Positions 32,078 through 44,564 of a stretch of DNA of 64,000 bases are shown here, piece by piece (the first letter of the stretch is position 1; each line of letters opens with the position of its first letter). The position numbers and the translations under genes were made by a program. The stretch is from Roseibium limicola (GTDB taxonomy: Bacteria > Pseudomonadota > Alphaproteobacteria > Rhizobiales > Stappiaceae): positions 186,001-250,000 of the forward strand of contig NZ_JAFLNF010000005.1 of the NCBI RefSeq assembly GCF_017313085.1, given 5' to 3'. The notes under the pieces were generated by a model. That model had not been told where the DNA came from, made no database searches, and saw nothing but the letters and a program-made list of their open reading frames with translations.

Positions 32078-32860
32078 ATGACGTCCGAACGGCTGGACTT
32101 TGCAAAAACGCTCGCCATCAAGGCGGGAGACCTCGGCCTCACCTACTTCCGCCGTCTGGACGAACTCACGATCTCAGCCAAAGGTCATCAGGACCTCGTT
32201 TCCGAGGCTGATCGGGACGTCGAAACCCTCGTGCGCGACGAAATCGCCAAAGCCTATCCGACCGATGGGATTTTGGGCGAAGAGCACGGCGTTGTCGCGG
32301 GAACCAGTGGATACACCTGGGTCATCGATCCGATTGATGGCACCGCAAACTTCGTCACCTCAATTCCTCAGTGGTGTGTGGTTCTGTCTTGCGTTTACGA
32401 AGGGCAGGTGATCCTGGGAGTGACCCATGACCCATGCCACAACGAAACTTTTTGGGCGGCAAAAGGCCAGGGTGCATTCATCAACGGCAAGCCGATGAAG
32501 ATTTCCGACAGCGAGAGCCTGGCAAATGGCTCCCTCGGCATCGGTTTCAATGGTCGCACCCGGGCTGAAGATGCGAACAACTGCATCAGCGCCTTGATTG
32601 ACCAGGGTGGTGTGTTCTTCCGGAATGCCTCGGGTGGACTGATGCTGGCCTATGCCGCGTCCGGTCGCCTGATCGGCTATGTGGAAAGCCACATGAATGC
32701 CTGGGATTGCCTGGCGGGTATGCTGATGGTGGAAGAGGCTGGCGGCAAAGTCGAAGCCTACAGTGCAGACGAAGCCCTGGAGAAGGGCACGCGTGTCGTG
32801 GTTGCCGGACCTGGCGTCTATGATGCAGTCCGGGAGATCGCCCAAAAGTCCTTCGCCTGA
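32078..32860 (+). CDS. Inositol monophosphatase-family phosphatase (SuhB-like)
   Basis: A 260-residue metal-dependent phosphatase. Motifs in order: DLVSEADRDVE, ILGEEHGVV, the core DPIDGTANF, and the C-terminal AWDCLAGMLMVEEAGG. The core TANF is the IMPase form and separates it from the PAP-directed CysQ encoded at 19826. Members hydrolyse inositol-1-phosphate, other sugar phosphates or histidinol-phosphate, so the substrate is open. GCAGGAG lies 13 bp upstream of the ATG. It is a single gene between terminators at 32021 and 32896. Confidence 0.86.
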   Translation: MTSERLDFAKTLAIKAGDLGLTYFRRLDELTISAKGHQDLVSEADRDVETLVRDEIAKAYPTDGILGEEHGVVAGTSGYTWVIDPIDGTANFVTSIPQWCVVLSCVYEGQVILGVTHDPCHNETFWAAKGQGAFINGKPMKISDSESLANGSLGIGFNGRTRAEDANNCISALIDQGGVFFRNASGGLMLAYAASGRLIGYVESHMNAWDCLAGMLMVEEAGGKVEAYSADEALEKGTRVVVAGPGVYDAVREIAQKSFA

Positions 32861-32895
32861 TTTCTGAGGCTCTCGGAAGAAGGTGTGAGGCAAAC

Positions 32896-32930
32896 AAAAA
32901 GCGCGGGCCTGAATGGGCGCCGCGCTTTTT
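32896..32930. terminator. Bidirectional terminator between convergent phosphatase and SDR genes
   Basis: AAAAAGCGCGG (32896-32906) pairs with CCGCGCTTTTT (32920-32930). The A-run and T-run on either side serve both strands. Confidence 0.88.
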
Positions 32931-32954
32931 CTATAGGGCAGGTAGCCTGATCGT

Positions 32955-33689
32955 TCAGACGGCTTCGAAGGATCCGCTTTCACGGCGATAGCACAGCCCG
33001 GTTTCAGCCAGCTCAGGCGATAACAGCTTGAGGATATCTGGCACGACTTCTTCGGGCTGGGTCAGGCTTTCGGGCTTTTCACCCGGCATGGCCTTTGCCC
33101 GCAGTCCGGTGCGCACCGGCCCTGGGTCATAGAGATTGACGCGCAGAGGTGCTTTCTCCATCTCGTGGGCATAGGTGACCACCATGGCATCCAGAGCAGC
33201 CTTGGAGGCTGCCTGAAGTCCCCAGAAGGGCACCCGGTCACGTGCCTGTGCTGATGTCATGAACACGGCACGACCGGCCTCTGACTGCCGCAGCAGAGGA
33301 TCCAGCGAGCGGATGAGGCGGAAGTTGGCGGTGACGTTGGTCGCCATCACCTTTTCGAAGTCCTTCGGCTTGATATGCCCGGTGGGGGCCAATGTGCCGA
33401 GGATACCAGCGTTGCCTACAAGAATATCGAGCTTCTTGAAGCGCTCAAAAATGGCGGCTCCAAGGCGGTCCAGCGCGTCAAAGTCGGTCACATCGACCGG
33501 CACCAGAGTGGCTGTGCCGCCTGCAGCGCGGATCTCGTCATCAAGATCTTCAAGCCCGCCCACGGTCTTGGCCAGCGCGAACACATGTGCGCCGCGCTTG
33601 CCGAGTTCCTTCGCCAGCTGATAGCCGATCCCGCGCGATGCGCCGGTGACCACAGCCACGCGCCCCGCAAAGTCTTGTGTATCTGCCAT
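32955..33689 (-). CDS. Short-chain dehydrogenase/reductase-like protein with altered active site
   Basis: A 244-residue SDR fold. The cofactor loop TGASRGIG (15-22), the NAG motif (VGNAGILG, 92-99) and the structural Asn118 (ATNVTANF) are present. The catalytic Ser is residue 146 (MTSAQAR) and Lys163 lies in AASKAAL. The tyrosine expected four residues before that lysine is Gln159 (FWGLQAASK), read directly from the DNA (CAG). This residue normally acts as the proton donor, so classical dehydrogenase activity is doubtful. It starts 8 bp after the purF stop and is probably co-transcribed with purF. Confidence 0.9.
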   Translation of the reverse strand: MADTQDFAGRVAVVTGASRGIGYQLAKELGKRGAHVFALAKTVGGLEDLDDEIRAAGGTATLVPVDVTDFDALDRLGAAIFERFKKLDILVGNAGILGTLAPTGHIKPKDFEKVMATNVTANFRLIRSLDPLLRQSEAGRAVFMTSAQARDRVPFWGLQAASKAALDAMVVTYAHEMEKAPLRVNLYDPGPVRTGLRAKAMPGEKPESLTQPEEVVPDILKLLSPELAETGLCYRRESGSFEAV

Positions 33690-33697
33690 CAGGTCGA

Positions 33698-35170
33698 TCA
33701 GCTCGCTTCCACCAGACGCGGTGCCTTGACCAGATCCTTTTCGCCATGCAGATCAGTCAAAGGCGTCGGATAGTCACCGGTGAAACAATGGTCGGTGAAC
33801 TGCGGGTTTTCGTTGTCGCGGCCCTCATAGCCCATGGCTTTGTAGATGCCATCGATGGAAACGAAGGAAAGGCTGTCGGCGCCGATGTAGTTGCACATCT
33901 CCTTGAGATTGTACTTGGCGGCCAGCAGCTTTTCGCGCACCGGCGTATCGATGCCGTAATAGTCAGAATAGCGGATTGGCGGCGAGGCGAGGCGGAAATG
34001 CACTTCCGCAGCTCCGGCTTCGCGGATCATTTGAACGATCTTCACTGATGTGGTGCCGCGCACAAGGCTGTCATCGATCAGCACGACGCGCTTGCCCTGG
34101 ATGATCGGCTTGTTGGCGGAATGCTTCATCTTGACGCCCTGATTACGGATCTGCTGCGTCGGTTCAATGAATGTTCGTCCCACATAGTGGTTACGGATGA
34201 TGCCGAGTTCGAAGGGAATGCCGCTTTCCTGGCTGTAGCCGATGGCAGCTGGAACGCCACTGTCGGGCACAGGCACGATGACATCTGCATCGACATGGGA
34301 TTCGAGCGCCAGCTGACGCCCCATCTTGCGGCGTACGTCATAAACGCTGCGGCCGCCGACAATGGAATCAGGACGCGAGAAGTAGATGTATTCGAAAATG
34401 CAGGGACGCGCCGGACGCTTGCCAAATGGGAAGTAGCTCTCAATACCGGTCGGCGTGCAGACGATCACTTCGCCGTTTTCAACTTCACGGATGAACGTCG
34501 CGCCGATGATGTCGAGTGCACAGGTTTCCGACGCCAGAATAGGTGCGCCATTCAGGTCGCCGAGTACAAGCGGACGAATGCCAAGCGGGTCACGGGCACC
34601 GATCAGCTTTTTCGGTGTCAGAGCAACAAGCGCATAAGCGCCTTCCATCGTGGTGATTGCCTCAATGAACCGGTCAACGATCTTGGTCTCGCGCGACCGG
34701 GCGATGAGCTGCAGAACCACTTCCGAATCGGAGGTGGACTGGCAGATTGCGCCGTCCCGAATAAGTTGCTGGCGCTGGGTCAGGCCGTTGGTGAAGTTGC
34801 CGTTATGGCAGATGGAGATACCGCCACCTTCCAGCTCGGCAAACAACGGCTGTACATTGCGCAGAACGGTCTCGCCAGTGGTGGAGTAGCGCACGTGGCC
34901 GATGGCTGACATGCCCGACAAGCGGGCCATGGTCTCGGCCTTGGAGAAGTGGTCGCCGACCAGTCCAAGGTGACGCTCGGCGCGGAACTGATCACCATCC
35001 AGGGTCACGATGCCGGCTGCTTCCTGGCCACGGTGCTGCAGGGCGTGCAGACCGAGAGCGGTTAGGGCGCTGGCGTCTTCATGGCCAAGAATGCCGAAAA
35101 CACCGCACTCTTCGCGCAACGTGTCGCCATTGATGTCGAACGGATCGTCAAGAGTTGTCTCGCCGTGCAT
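33698..35170 (-). CDS. purF: Amidophosphoribosyltransferase
   Basis: A 490-residue enzyme of the first committed step of purine synthesis: it makes phosphoribosylamine from PRPP and glutamine. A 21-residue propeptide precedes the nucleophile Cys22 (REECGVFGILG), as in Bacillus-type enzymes that are processed. The PRPP-binding motif is VVLIDDSLVRGTTS. Cysteines that match Fe-S ligand positions in Bacillus PurF are seen in PCIFEYIYFSRPDS, MCNYIGADSL and HCFTGDYP, but only one Cys is present at the last site, where Bacillus has two. It is followed by the SDR gene after 8 bp, and cvpA lies upstream on the same strand, as in many proteobacteria. Confidence 0.96.
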   Translation of the reverse strand: MHGETTLDDPFDINGDTLREECGVFGILGHEDASALTALGLHALQHRGQEAAGIVTLDGDQFRAERHLGLVGDHFSKAETMARLSGMSAIGHVRYSTTGETVLRNVQPLFAELEGGGISICHNGNFTNGLTQRQQLIRDGAICQSTSDSEVVLQLIARSRETKIVDRFIEAITTMEGAYALVALTPKKLIGARDPLGIRPLVLGDLNGAPILASETCALDIIGATFIREVENGEVIVCTPTGIESYFPFGKRPARPCIFEYIYFSRPDSIVGGRSVYDVRRKMGRQLALESHVDADVIVPVPDSGVPAAIGYSQESGIPFELGIIRNHYVGRTFIEPTQQIRNQGVKMKHSANKPIIQGKRVVLIDDSLVRGTTSVKIVQMIREAGAAEVHFRLASPPIRYSDYYGIDTPVREKLLAAKYNLKEMCNYIGADSLSFVSIDGIYKAMGYEGRDNENPQFTDHCFTGDYPTPLTDLHGEKDLVKAPRLVEAS

Positions 35171-35262
35171 GGCGAAGCTCCTTCATTGGCGCCGCGCGGG
35201 GGGAGGGCGGCGGTTTTGCTGGGTCTAGGGCAGCGGTGCCGGATCTTTGCGGGGCATCCGCG

Positions 35263-35287
35263 AAAAAAGGCCGGCTGTGCCGACCTT
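35263..35287 (-). terminator. Intrinsic terminator between cvpA and purF
   Basis: AAGGCCGGC (35267-35275) pairs with 35279-35287 (one G-U pair) around a 3-nt loop. On the minus strand TTTTTT follows. It lies a few bases past the cvpA stop, so cvpA and purF may be only partly co-transcribed. Confidence 0.85.
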
Positions 35288-35292
35288 CTAAT

Positions 35293-35904
35293 TCAGTTAT
35301 CGCCGGTTGTCAGCTGTTCCAGTCCCTGACGCTGGGAGGCGCTGTAGCCGGTATCTTCCTGGCTGGAGACAGACCCGGTGGTCTGTGTGGACTCAGCCTT
35401 GAGCTTGTCCAGGATGGCCTGTTCGGGATCCTCAGGCAGGAAGCCAACCAGGCGCTCGCCGACAGACAGAAGCACGGGGCGCGACTTGGCCTGGACAATC
35501 CAGCCGGGCTGTTGGTCCGGATGAACGAACCAGTTGAAGAACATCAAGGCCACCACAACCAGCAACAGCCCGCGAACCGAGCCGAACACGAAGCCGAGCG
35601 TGCGGTCGAGTGCACCGATGCGGCTGTCGAGCACGAAATCGGAGATACGCATTGTCACATAGCTGACGATAAGCAGCGTGATGATGAAGACGCTGGCCAC
35701 CGAGACGCCAAGCGCCACATGCTGGTTGGTGATATATTGTTGGGCGTAGGGCAGCACGTCCCCATACAGATAGAAAGCCGCAACGGCAGCCGCAACCCAG
35801 GAGGCGATTGACAGAACCTCGCGGACAAAACCACGGATCATCGCAAGAGCCGCCGAGATCAGCATGATGACGATCAGGATTCCGTCGAGCAGCGTAATCG
35901 GCAT
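35293..35904 (-). CDS. cvpA: CvpA-family membrane protein
   Basis: A 203-residue inner-membrane protein with four hydrophobic segments (about 6-25, 27-50, 64-85, 100-120). The conserved opening is LLDGILIVIMLISAALAMIR and the signature RGLLLVVVALMF is present. CvpA was described as needed for colicin V export and affects envelope properties; its exact activity is unresolved. A low-complexity, charged C-terminal tail follows the last helix. It is read before purF, the usual cvpA-purF order. Confidence 0.92.
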   Translation of the reverse strand: MPITLLDGILIVIMLISAALAMIRGFVREVLSIASWVAAAVAAFYLYGDVLPYAQQYITNQHVALGVSVASVFIITLLIVSYVTMRISDFVLDSRIGALDRTLGFVFGSVRGLLLVVVALMFFNWFVHPDQQPGWIVQAKSRPVLLSVGERLVGFLPEDPEQAILDKLKAESTQTTGSVSSQEDTGYSASQRQGLEQLTTGDN

Positions 35905-35963
35905 GTGTCTTTCCGGTCCCTCGTCCGTTTCGCCGGCGCCAATCCCTGACCTGAGATGGAGCG

Positions 35964-35983
35964 CCAGACCAAGTCTGGTTTTT
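35964..35983 (+). repeat. Terminator-like hairpin facing opposite to the genes around it
   Basis: CCAGAC (35964-35969) pairs with 35973-35978 around a 3-nt loop and is followed by TTTTT on the plus strand. Both neighbouring genes (radA and cvpA) are on the minus strand, and no plus-strand gene precedes it. It may end an antisense transcript, or be chance. Confidence 0.35.
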
Positions 35984-36001
35984 GGTGCGCGTCAGGATCC
36001 T

Positions 36002-37402
36002 TTATGAGCCATCCGACTCAGTACGACCTGCTTGCGCCGATATTTTGGCGATGAAATCCCCAAGTTCCTCGAGGCCATTCGCCGTCAAATCTGTAAGGGC
36101 TTTGTCCTTTAGATTTCCTTGCGGACAAAACGCCTTGTCGAAGCCCAGTTTTTCCGCCTCTTTGAGGCGGGATTGTGCCTGAGCCACTGGTCTGATGGCT
36201 CCTGACAGGCTGACCTCGCCGAAATAGACGCAATTGGCTGGAAGGGCAAGCCCGCTAAGTGAAGAGACAAGGGCCGCAGCGACAGCCAGATCGGCGCCTG
36301 GTTCATTGATCCGCAGTCCACCGGCCACATTCAGGTAGACATCATGCTGTGAAAAGCGGATCCCGCAGCGGGCTTCCAGTACCGCAAGGATCATCGACAG
36401 ACGTGCCGAATCCCAGCCGATAACGGCTCTGCGCGGGGTCCCGAGCGGAGATGGGGCAACCAGAGCCTGGATCTCGATGAGCAGCGGGCGCGAGCCTTCA
36501 AGGCCGGCAAACACGGCAGCGCCGGGTGAGTTCGTCGATCGTTCACCCAGAAAAAGCGCTGAAGGGTTTGCGACCTGTTGTAATCCGGCACCGGTCATCT
36601 CGAAGACGCCGATCTCGTCGGTCGCCCCAAACCGGTTCTTGACCGACCTGAGAATTCGGTACTGGTGCGCGCCATCGCCTTCAAAGTAGAGCACTGCGTC
36701 GACCATATGCTCGACGACACGTGGCCCGGCAATCTGGCCGTCCTTGGTCACATGTCCGACCAAGACAAGGGTACTGCCGGTTTTCTTGGCATAGCGCACC
36801 ATCGCCTGTGCCGAAGCTCTGACCTGGGTCACGGTGCCGGGAGGCGAATCGACCTTGTCTGTCCACAGGGTCTGAACGGAATCGAGGATGACGAGGGCCG
36901 GCGGCTTGTCGGCCTGCAAGGTGGCGAGAATATCTTCCACGCTGGTTTCGGCGGCGAGTGCCACAGGCGATTTGGCCAATCCCAGGCGTTCGGCCCGCAG
37001 ACGAACCTGTCCGATGGCTTCTTCGCCGGATATATACACCGTCTTGTGGCCGAGATCTGCCAGTGCAGCGGCTGCCTGAATGAGAAGTGTTGACTTGCCG
37101 ATGCCCGGATCGCCGCCGACCAGAAGTGCGGACCCGCGCACGAAGCCGCCCCCGGTCACCCGGTCGAGTTCGGCCACCTTTGACTGGATGCGCAGAGGTT
37201 CTTTGGCGTCGCCTTCCAATCCGACCAGCTCGATCACACGGCCGCGGGTTGCCGAGCCGCGTGAAGGGCCCCCGCCGATGCCTCCGCCGGTCTGCTCCTC
37301 CACGATGGAATTCCATTCGCCACAGGATTCGCAGCGCCCCGCCCATTTGGCGGTAACCGCACCGCAGGACTGGCAGACAAAGGTAGTGGACCGTTTGGCC
37401 AT
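36002..37402 (-). CDS. radA: DNA repair protein RadA
   Basis: A 466-residue RecA-like branch-migration helicase. The N-terminal four-cysteine zinc finger is CQSCGAVTAKWAGRCESCG (about 10-28). Walker A is GGDPGIGKSTLL (about 95-106). The RadA-specific KNRFGATDEIG motif lies mid-protein. The C-terminal Lon-like domain follows. It acts in recombinational repair and processes branched DNA. Its start directly abuts the alr stop, with the ribosome-binding site inside alr, so the two genes are translationally linked. Confidence 0.96.
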   Translation of the reverse strand: MAKRSTTFVCQSCGAVTAKWAGRCESCGEWNSIVEEQTGGGIGGGPSRGSATRGRVIELVGLEGDAKEPLRIQSKVAELDRVTGGGFVRGSALLVGGDPGIGKSTLLIQAAAALADLGHKTVYISGEEAIGQVRLRAERLGLAKSPVALAAETSVEDILATLQADKPPALVILDSVQTLWTDKVDSPPGTVTQVRASAQAMVRYAKKTGSTLVLVGHVTKDGQIAGPRVVEHMVDAVLYFEGDGAHQYRILRSVKNRFGATDEIGVFEMTGAGLQQVANPSALFLGERSTNSPGAAVFAGLEGSRPLLIEIQALVAPSPLGTPRRAVIGWDSARLSMILAVLEARCGIRFSQHDVYLNVAGGLRINEPGADLAVAAALVSSLSGLALPANCVYFGEVSLSGAIRPVAQAQSRLKEAEKLGFDKAFCPQGNLKDKALTDLTANGLEELGDFIAKISAQAGRTESDGS

Positions 37403-38563
37403 TTAGTCTCCGGGTCGTGCTCCAGGGGCGGGCAGGCGGCCATAGTGGCGCCGGTATCGTTTGCCCAACCCCGTCAGGTATTCGTAATCGATGGTCTGGG
37501 CATAGGAAGCCAGATCGCTCGCGGCAACATTCGGGCCCAGTATTTCCACAAGCGAACCGCGTTTTACAATGCCTTGAGGCACATCTGTGACGTCAAGCGC
37601 CATCATGTCCATGGAGATGCGGCCGAACAGCGGCGCAATGTGGCCTTCAATCCAGCCATACCCACCTTCTGAGGCGTCGGTGGACCCCGTCAGACGCAAC
37701 ATCCCGTCGGCATATCCGGCTGCGACCATGGCAATGCGGGTGTCGCGTCGAGCGGTCCGGGAAGCGGCGTAGCCGACTGTTTCTCCCGCGGGAACCGATC
37801 TGACGGTCATCACGCGCGCTTCCACGCGGGCAACGGCTGCCATCGTGTTCGCCTGGGTATCGAGGGCTTTGCCGCCATACAGAGAGATGCCGGGTCGGGC
37901 CATGTCGAAATGGAACTCCTTGCCCATCAGCACACCGGCAGAATTAGCCAGCGAACGCGGAATCTGGCTGAAGGGAGCGGTGACTTCACGAAAGGCCGAC
38001 AGCTGGCGCCCATTCATTGGGTGGTTCGGGTCTGAGCCGCAGGCGAGGTGCGTCAGCAGCAGGTCCAGCGAGAAGGAATTGATCAGTGCTGCGTCGCCCA
38101 TCATGCTGGAAAACTGTTCCGGACGTAGCCCGAGCCGGTTCATGCCGGTGTCGATGTGAATAGCGGCAGGAAAAGCCTGGCCTGCGGTCCTGCAGAAGCC
38201 AGCCCACTCCCGAATTTCTTCTTCCGAACCTAGAACCGGTACGAGGCTGTTGGACGCCAGAGTTTCCGCAGTGTCCGGAAACAACCCATCGAGAACATAG
38301 ATCTTGGCCTGGGGAAGAACCTTGCGCACTTCCAGGGCTTCTCCCGGCAGTGCCACGCAAAAGGTTGTGCAGCCTTCGTCCCAAAGCCGCTTGGAGGTGA
38401 TCTTGGCTCCGGTGCCATAGGCGTCAGCCTTGATGGTGGCAGCGCAGGAGCAGCCTGAGGCAAGCTGTGAGGCGATAAGGGACCAGTTGGCGGCGATGGC
38501 ATCGGTGTCGATGGTCAAAACGCCGCCGGCGTGGGAATCAGGAAGGGGTCTTTGCGAAGTCAC
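37403..38563 (-). CDS. alr: Alanine racemase
   Basis: A 386-residue PLP enzyme that makes D-alanine for peptidoglycan. The PLP lysine is Lys45 (AATIKADAYGTGAK). The catalytic tyrosine lies in MVAAGYADGMLR. The carboxylate-binding GRISMDMMALDVT is present. Length and motifs match the fold-type III family. It is next to radA and runs in the same direction, with dnaB further upstream; this dnaB-alr-radA order occurs in Hyphomicrobiales. Confidence 0.95.
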   Translation of the reverse strand: MTSQRPLPDSHAGGVLTIDTDAIAANWSLIASQLASGCSCAATIKADAYGTGAKITSKRLWDEGCTTFCVALPGEALEVRKVLPQAKIYVLDGLFPDTAETLASNSLVPVLGSEEEIREWAGFCRTAGQAFPAAIHIDTGMNRLGLRPEQFSSMMGDAALINSFSLDLLLTHLACGSDPNHPMNGRQLSAFREVTAPFSQIPRSLANSAGVLMGKEFHFDMARPGISLYGGKALDTQANTMAAVARVEARVMTVRSVPAGETVGYAASRTARRDTRIAMVAAGYADGMLRLTGSTDASEGGYGWIEGHIAPLFGRISMDMMALDVTDVPQGIVKRGSLVEILGPNVAASDLASYAQTIDYEYLTGLGKRYRRHYGRLPAPGARPGD

Positions 38564-43826: not shown

Positions 43827-44564
43827 ATGTTCAGCCTTGAGGGAAAAGCCGCCCTTGTTACCGGTGCGACCGGTGGGATCGGCGAAGCCATCGCGCGGGC
43901 ATTGCATGCCCAGGGTGCGACTGTTGCTCTGTCTGGGACACGGGCTGAGAAGCTCGAGGCTCTTGCGGCCGATCTTGGCGAGCGCGCTTTCGTGACCCCG
44001 GCCAATCTGTCTGACCGCGCTGCAGTCGACGCTCTTCTGCCGGCCGCCGAAGCCGTGATGGGCAAGGTCGATATTCTGGTCAACAACGCTGGTATCACGC
44101 GCGACAATCTCTTCATGCGCATGAAGGACGAGGAGTGGGACCAGGTTCTGGAAGTGAATCTGACATCCGGTTTCCGTCTTTGCCGGTCCGCCATCAAGGG
44201 CATGATGAAGCGCCGCACCGGCCGCATCATCGGCATTACCTCCGTCGTCGGCGTGACGGGCAATCCTGGTCAGGCTAATTATGCCGCCGCGAAAGCCGGC
44301 ATGATCGGCATGTACAAATCTTTGGCTCGCGAAGTGGCCAGCCGCCACATCACCGTCAACACGGTAGCGCCGGGTTTCATTGAAACAGCCATGACTGATG
44401 CGTTGAACGACAAGCAGAAGGAATCAATTCTGCAAGGCGTTCCGGCCGGCCGCCTCGGCAAGGCTGACGAGATTGCGTCGGCCTGCAGCTATCTGGCCAG
44501 CGACGAAGCAGCTTACGTGTCGGGCCAGACCCTTCATGTTAACGGTGGCATGGCCATGATTTGA
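43827..44564 (+). CDS. fabG: 3-oxoacyl-ACP reductase
   Basis: A 245-residue SDR reductase that uses NADPH to reduce 3-oxoacyl-ACP. The cofactor loop TGATGGIGEAIARAL is near 12-26, NNAGITRDNLFMRMK matches FabG, and the Ser/Tyr/Lys set is intact (GITSVVG..., NYAAAKAGM). The C-terminal SGQTLHVNGGMAMI is characteristic. It lies between fabD and acpP. Confidence 0.97.
   Translation: MFSLEGKAALVTGATGGIGEAIARALHAQGATVALSGTRAEKLEALAADLGERAFVTPANLSDRAAVDALLPAAEAVMGKVDILVNNAGITRDNLFMRMKDEEWDQVLEVNLTSGFRLCRSAIKGMMKRRTGRIIGITSVVGVTGNPGQANYAAAKAGMIGMYKSLAREVASRHITVNTVAPGFIETAMTDALNDKQKESILQGVPAGRLGKADEIASACSYLASDEAAYVSGQTLHVNGGMAMI

Follow-up and report, generated by a model that had tools for sequence, protein, structure and literature searches.

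What does an SDR do once the tyrosine of its YxxxK motif has gone? The motif is the hallmark of classical SDRs, and the loss of catalytic residues is usually read as decay. The question is raised by a gene beside purF in the window (the whole stretch of 64,000 nucleotides of Roseibium limicola DNA analysed here, from a genome of 4.51 Mb in 17 contigs whose nearest named relatives are Roseibium and 'Labrenzia'). The gene encodes glutamine at the tyrosine position, and comparison with its orthologues reveals a real, conserved and somewhat surprising variant.

An SDR without the catalytic tyrosine

The gene and the residues discussed are given below; row counts here and later refer to 47 Tyr-less and 38 Tyr-bearing Stappiaceae sequences, the incomplete rows L048 and L199 being left out.

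32955..33689, minus strand: Tyr-less classical SDR, 244 aa, ATG start (PF00106 match, fold, likeness to 4z0t)
33624..33647, minus strand: cofactor loop T15-G-A-S-R-G-I-G22 (TGASRGIG), intact in the sequence
33336..33338, minus strand: Asn118 of the SDR tetrad (45 of the 47 Tyr-less rows have Asn and 2 have Ala)
33252..33254, minus strand: Ser146, the catalytic serine position, Ser in the window
33246..33248, minus strand: Gln148, which covaries with the absence of Tyr159/Ser146 (most Tyr-bearers have Ala)
33213..33215, minus strand: Gln159, codon CAG, at the catalytic tyrosine position (sequence and orthologue reading)
33201..33203, minus strand: Lys163 of YxxxK, kept (Lys in 47 of 47 Tyr-less rows)

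The protein matches adh_short (PF00106; 152.9 bits, cut-off 26.6) and also adh_short_C2, and its AlphaFold2 model (41 sequences; mean pLDDT 94.2, pTM 0.92) predicts a classical SDR fold for the Tyr-less protein. The top 50 Foldseek matches are all SDR-type dehydrogenases or reductases by description; the closest solved structure is 4z0t from Brucella ovis, followed by YciK structures, several of which contain NADP+ or NADPH. Besides a Rossmann fold with adh_short, the window SDR has the classical motifs TGxxxGxG (T15-G22) and NAG (N93-A94-G95) as well as Ser146, Asn118 and Lys163, while the tyrosine of YxxxK is replaced by Gln159. The earlier note had read the tetrad as Asn118, Ser146, Gln159 and Lys163 and the cofactor loop as intact, and the codon CAG at 33213-33215 and the TGASRGIG at T15-G22 bear it out on both points. 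In SDRs, the lack of an acidic residue at the end of strand 2, together with basic residues, goes with a preference for NADP(H); the window SDR, which has no acidic residue there and carries Lys/Arg41 and Arg19, fits this rule, suggesting NADP(H) as its cofactor.

The window SDR belongs to a purF-linked alphaproteobacterial SDR orthologue group, being the best profile match of its genome with purF next upstream on the same strand. Its best curated family match is YciK (NF006509, 170.2 bits), under the curated cut-off of 269. Two other assignments were rejected. Divergent (FabI-type) SDRs have the motif YxxMxxxK, with Tyr seven residues before Lys, and at this place, residue 156, every one of the 47 Tyr-less and 38 Tyr-bearing rows has Trp. 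A PruA-type protein was considered, since Asp at the Ser position of an SDR is reminiscent of PTR1 and PruA itself is an SDR of Agrobacterium; the TGx3RxG motif of PruA/FolM pteridine reductases is missing, residue 20 being Gly in 85 of 85 Stappiaceae rows.

Distribution of the tyrosine loss

All 87 Stappiaceae genomes searched gave one strong SDR match each. Among the 45 Roseibium genomes (window included; the orthologues of the others are 65-85% identical to the window SDR), residue 159 is Gln in 40, His in 5 and Tyr in none, and the neighbouring genus g27, which is probably Hongsoonwoonella / 'Stappia' sediminis, since the loci of both have Gln at this residue, has Gln159 in 3 of 3 genomes. 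Tyr159 is absent, with only Gln or His in its place, from 48 of 48 genomes of these two genera, and the other five Stappiaceae genera have it in 39 of 39. A change from Tyr to Gln takes two base changes with His as a one-step intermediate, which would fit the mixture of His and Gln. In a scan of named genomes, the best 80 of at least 565 confirmed relatives had Tyr in 70, Gln in 9 and His in 1. The earlier note had proposed that Tyr in close relatives would mean a sequence error or a decayed gene; such relatives occur in the five other Stappiaceae genera but not in Roseibium. Because Tyr159 is gone from all 45 Roseibium genomes, a sequencing error or chance is excluded, and because the five other genera bear Tyr, the loss is placed in the Roseibium lineage and its neighbour genus.

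A class-wide sample keeps Tyr159 in 87 of 88 loci; 134 genomes were searched for it and 87 of them yielded these loci, with the window genome omitted and one genome giving two. Outside the Stappiaceae, Leu159 was found in 2 of 2 genomes of genus g18 (G053 and G214, family f18), and g65 of the same family has Tyr159 in 8 of 8 genomes read; a single genome elsewhere in the class has Phe159 (L370). At L254 (G169), the purF-linked SDR runs out of frame after Trp156, just ahead of the catalytic Tyr, and this locus is a pseudogene or an assembly error and no true Tyr loss. A second SDR of the window served as control:

43827..44564, plus strand: FabG-like SDR, 245 aa (named by eye from its neighbours)

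It was matched at E<1e-100 in 31 of the 31 genomes searched, all of one family, and both Tyr and Ser are kept in the 30 loci read.

Parsimony places two Tyr-loss changes on two of three trees and four on the 237-row tree, one of the four being L370 (Phe) and one L254 (shifted frame). By an AU test on a subset of 46 rows, a single Tyr-less clade is not significantly worse (p 0.377), and constraining the Leu159 pair to its own family gave a slightly better tree. The two Gln genera group together with an SH-aLRT of 90 (not starred) in a tree that included the active-site columns. Two losses are favoured, one loss combined with transfer is the less likely course, and Leu159 in family f18 is probably a second, independent loss.

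A Tyr-bearing paralogue of the same orthologue group, acting as a replacement, was rejected, as 87 of 87 family genomes have one match at E<1e-90 and no second below about 1e-45. At E<1e-40, a second SDR match occurs in 34 of 45 Roseibium genomes versus 4 of 42 other Stappiaceae genomes. Five of these second Roseibium SDRs were read (L377, L378-L380 and L383); they have Ser, Tyr and Lys intact, are 30-34% identical to the window SDR, and no purF was found in the stretches read around them. The first, L377 (G000 C14:272800-277500), is the next SDR of the window genome, a Ser/Tyr/Lys protein (about 34% identical), with no purF found within the 4.7 kb read; belonging to a different subfamily, it speaks neither for nor against a takeover of the function.

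Selection on the gene and on its catalytic segment

The Tyr-less and Tyr-bearing Stappiaceae rows are equally diverse (mean pairwise identity 0.759 vs 0.758). Median dN/dS of close pairs is 0.063 in the Tyr-less group (23 pairs) vs 0.068 in the Tyr-bearing group (41 pairs), and SDR distances relative to PurF distances give a ratio of means of 2.02 vs 1.88 and a slope of 1.41 vs 1.50. Since dN/dS and SDR/PurF distances are alike in both groups, the gene is not decaying and has been kept; judged by these substitution patterns, it is under normal purifying selection. Entropy is higher in the Tyr-less group at residues 142-158 (0.99 vs 0.62) and 159-175 (0.82 vs 0.47), the mean difference being +0.36 in segment 142-175 and -0.03 over the rest of the protein (p 0.0005 by site permutation, 3% by circular blocks), with residues 201-217 nearly as relaxed as 146-162 (0.50 vs 0.55). 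By this measure, the catalytic segment 142-175 is relaxed while the gene as a whole stays constrained.

A lost catalytic residue and a relaxed loop are what a decaying gene, or a sequencing error, would also produce. However, the loss of Tyr is fixed in 45 of 45 Roseibium genomes and in 3 of 3 of the neighbour genus, dN/dS is 0.06, and no Roseibium match among the matches listed has an internal stop. The orthologues rule this explanation out, and we regard it as extremely improbable.

Serine 146 and other residues of the active site

Loss of the tyrosine is often accompanied by loss of the serine. In the 48 Tyr-less Stappiaceae genomes residue 146 is Ser in 25, Ala in 16, Asp in 4, Thr in 2 and Cys in 1; the serine is replaced in 23 of them, most commonly by Ala, which leaves neither Ser nor Tyr. 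All 38 Tyr-bearing Stappiaceae rows have Ser146. Class-wide it is kept in 62 of 88 loci and replaced in 26 (Cys 10, Asp 7, Ala 3, Thr 3, Gly 2, Asn 1), with Lys163 kept in 86. From these counts, the purF-linked orthologue group often tolerates the loss of Ser146, the FabG-like control covering one family only. Some SDRs stay active with Asp or Thr in place of Ser, and pteridine reductase PTR1 uses Asp.

These numbers bear on the possibility that the whole purF-linked SDR family, Tyr-bearers included, never relied on the full relay and has a main job that is non-catalytic or limited to cofactor binding, which would only be clearer in Roseibium. The missing serines beside a conserved Lys163 point in this direction, as do the 30 of 30 serines of the control (one family) and the near universality of the gene in the order, where an orthologue was found in 288 of 297 genomes (E 1e-60; in the class sample 88 of 134, the window's own included). 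But Tyr159 in 87 of 88 class-wide loci indicates that Tyr matters outside the Tyr-less lineages, and with Asp or Thr standing for Ser activity can be kept; we consider this family-wide reading rather unlikely. That Ser146 is so often missing class-wide, in a gene next to purF, is also a pointer to some uncharacterised housekeeping function.

Invariant in the 47 Tyr-less and 38 Tyr-bearing rows are Thr15, Gly16, Arg19, Gly20, Gly22, Asn93-Ala94, His105, Trp156, Lys163, Pro189-Gly190, Thr194, Arg197 and Pro202-Gly-Glu204; exceptions among the Tyr-less rows are Asn118 to Ala in 2, Ser18 to Pro in 2 and Gly95 to Ala in 8. Residue 188 separates the groups, being Asp in 47 of 47 Tyr-less vs Asn in 37 of 38 Tyr-bearing rows. 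Two class-wide loci keep Tyr and lose Lys163 (L375 and L376, with Gln163 beside Asn146 and Ser118, and Leu163 beside Gly146, respectively), and L117, from a MAG of the Rhizobiaceae group, has Ala146 and Gln163 with Tyr kept; from their residues, these three are further candidate pseudoenzymes.

A coupled change at residue 148

Residue 148, two after the catalytic serine, covaries with these losses. The counts come from 308 distinct proteins, a set enriched for Stappiaceae and for low-scoring genomes, of which 305 had all sites readable (three dropped). Of the 215 orthologues that have both Tyr and Ser, 214 carry Ala, Val, Ser, Ile or Leu at residue 148 and 1 carries Glu; where Tyr is present and Ser missing, 10 of 38 have Gln, Glu, Asp or Arg there; with Gln, His or Leu159, residue 148 is Gln in 32, His in 15, Met in 2 and Glu in 1 (50 of 50 such rows, the non-Tyr group of 52 also including L370, with Phe159 and Phe148, and L254, with its frame shifted after 156 and Ala148). 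On the 237-row tree, built without active-site columns, polar 148 takes 13 changes, and 12 of the 13 all-polar-148 groups consist only of rows without Ser or without Tyr; L341 is the exception. Among 201 Tyr-bearers, 11 have polar 148 and 10 of these 11 lack Ser, where the background rate is 17% (29% when taken by branch length), giving binomial p values of 2e-7 and 3e-5 in a post hoc test that takes rows as independent and counts the covariation on the data in which it was noticed. A phylogenetic pairs test went mostly in the same direction (median p 0.25-1) and was underpowered. From this covariation, we read the change at 148 as a rewired pocket more than as simple decay.

The main rival to a non-reducing, NADP(H)-loaded protein is an enzyme that works without Tyr159 and remains an oxidoreductase. 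Its proton could come from Gln/His148 together with Gln/His159, from Asp188, from the invariant His105, from a water held by Lys163, or from the substrate as in SimC7. The concerted changes at 148 and 159, with 159 staying Gln or His in the Stappiaceae, are consistent with such an enzyme, as are the Asp188 fixed in Tyr-less rows (Asn in Tyr-bearers) and the His105 invariant in both; active Tyr-less SDRs are known, too, namely SimC7 with Ile (PMC5039031, in its available text) and PglF/WbpM with Met (PMC8987622, likewise). Residue 159 is not free, only Gln and His being found there, and 148 is confined to Gln, His, Glu or Met, so that there could be a new catalytic arrangement instead of none. 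On the other hand, 16 of the 47 Tyr-less rows have Ala in place of Ser146, the Leu159 of the second Tyr-less lineage cannot donate a proton, and the active-site loop is more variable than in Tyr-bearers. We consider a Tyr-free oxidoreductase possible, but would not bet on it. A bolder form, which we think unlikely, would be a second active-site chemistry in the purF-linked SDR family, in which Gln, His or Glu148 (Ser+2) takes over hydrogen bonding or proton transfer and makes Ser146 and Tyr159 dispensable; having originated repeatedly and become fixed in Roseibium, it would give a functional classical SDR that lacks Tyr, and in several species also Ser, and that is linked to purine synthesis.

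Linkage to purF

The SDR gene stands in the following neighbourhood.

35293..35904, minus strand: cvpA-like gene (colicin V production protein; PF02674, 116 bits), upstream of purF
33698..35170, minus strand: purF, 8 bp upstream of the SDR start (TIGR01134, 489 bits, cut-off 350)
32896..32930, no strand assigned: likely bidirectional terminator between the SDR gene and the inositol-monophosphatase-like gene, 11-bp inverted repeat AAAAAGCGCGG/CCGCGCTTTTT, found by eye
32078..32860: inositol-monophosphatase-like gene (PF00459), convergent with the SDR gene

Terminator prediction gave a plus-strand stem at 32915-32927, with 4 sites in the region where chance alone would give 2.5, and no promoter-like sites were found in 32800-36100. 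A minus-strand run at 35293-38563, which ends in the purF-SDR pair, comprises the cvpA-like gene and ORFs 36002-37402 and 37403-38563, which by eye look like radA and alr.

The earlier note had proposed to check the co-occurrence of purF and the SDR gene and had taken the linkage as a hint of some role with nucleotide synthesis. The linkage is real: purF lies on the same strand as the SDR gene in 80 of 88 class-wide loci, mostly less than 150 nt away and at most about 1.2 kb (tblastn ends). Two smaller sets of loci had it in 75 of 78 and in 25 of 30, some misses perhaps reflecting contig ends or short flanks, and it is present, strand aside, at the locus in all 85 Stappiaceae rows compared. 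Because of its class-wide spread, the linkage would long predate the loss of Tyr. As the cause of that loss it was rejected, since Tyr-bearers share it (80 of 88 linked, 87 of 88 with Tyr).

The protein might also be an NADP(H)-sensing partner of PurF which tunes purine synthesis to the redox state, by analogy with MAT2B and methionine adenosyltransferase. The tight conservation of the pair and its 8 bp spacing in the window would suit such a partnership, and an NADP-binding SDR regulatory subunit provides a precedent (PMC3793261, in the text available). Conserved adjacency is no proof of contact, however, and the Tyr-bearing orthologues have it too; MAT2B keeps YxxxK (same source), and none of the papers listed in the literature searches deals with this pair or with the purF-linked SDR, judged by titles and the opening of abstracts. 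Such a partner role seems doubtful to us.

A probable cofactor-binding protein without the textbook relay

We lean towards the view that the window SDR is an NADP(H)-binding protein which lacks the textbook proton relay and has been kept as a binding, sensing or structural protein. In active SDRs, Tyr acts as proton donor, its pKa lowered by Lys, and Ser serves to polarise the carbonyl (PMC5039031, as far as its available text goes). With Gln159 the SDR relay cannot run, and with Ala146 as well there would be no polarisation or donation by these residues. Gln or His159 could still bond the nicotinamide ribose, by analogy with Tyr159 and Lys163 of MAT2B (PMC3793261, available text). What speaks for this view in the sequences are the fixed Gln/His159, the normal purifying selection, the kept cofactor motif and the coupled change at 148; NADP(H) binding, a lost reductase activity and a non-catalytic job would be the consequence. 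The earlier note had offered NAD(P) binding without reduction, or another donor, and this remains the best pair of readings, strengthened by the fixation of Gln/His and the conserved cofactor motif and Lys163 in an alignment where Ser146 is lost in 23 of 48 genomes.

We envisage the following history. The gene would be the Roseibium member of an ancient orthologue group of purF-linked classical SDRs in the Alphaproteobacteria. Its Tyr would have changed to Gln, with His in some species, likely in the common ancestor of Roseibium and its neighbour genus. The residue two after the catalytic serine would have become Gln or His (in few cases Glu or Met), and the serine and its surrounding loop would have been freed from constraint, with the cofactor loop, Lys163 and the family-specific residues staying fixed and Asn118 nearly always so. 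The Tyr-less protein would still fold as a classical SDR and bind NADP(H), the textbook hydride and proton-relay reaction being gone, and would serve as a cofactor-dependent binding, structural or sensing protein, a pseudoenzyme comparable to NmrA, HSCARG or MAT2B. Both the family-wide reading and the PurF partnership are compatible with this preferred, non-catalytic view, and our confidences in them overlap. In this case an SDR that is syntenic and present in nearly the whole order has lost its Tyr clade-wide under constraint and with a coupled second-site change; the Tyr-bearing Stappiaceae genera provide a natural control, and the role of an SDR without its proton donor could be tested by a two-residue swap.

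Comparison with known systems

The closest structure, 4z0t ('putative oxoacyl-(acyl carrier protein) reductase'), is like the window SDR at the level of an orthologue (57% identity over 239 columns, same fold) and shares the family motif FWGPYAASKAA and the tail AMPGEDPETL; it differs by the Tyr of its YxxxK motif and by Gly-Val-Ala in place of the Ala147-Gln148-Ala149 of the window SDR. The Brucella ovis SDR described in the available part of PMC12810213 has PDB entries 5ha5 and 5er6, not 4z0t. YciK (NF006509; 3f1k and 3iah of E. coli/Salmonella) is the best curated family and the nearest fold group after 4z0t, but its structures are only about 31-34% identical and the family score stays under the cut-off. 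PruA/FolM proteins are likewise SDRs found in Alphaproteobacteria, with a known regulatory output in the case of PruA, but have the TGx3RxG motif that the window SDR lacks (PMC13259868, from its available text).

Among SDRs without the catalytic Tyr, the polyketide ketoreductase SimC7 is also an NADP-binding SDR, but of the extended type, with a Ser-Ile-His triad and a substrate-assisted reaction on angucyclinone (PMC5039031, available text). In WbpM/PglF (MxxxK), Tyr has been replaced in a defined SDR lineage with Lys kept, as here, but these are active nucleotide-sugar dehydratases in which a Thr-Asp pair takes the role of the base (PMC8987622, available text). MAT2B, the NADP-binding regulatory subunit of methionine adenosyltransferase, differs in its second domain, its kept YxxxK and its known partnership; together with NmrA, HSCARG and CtBP, however, it represents SDR-type NAD(P) binders that serve as regulators (PMC3793261, available text).
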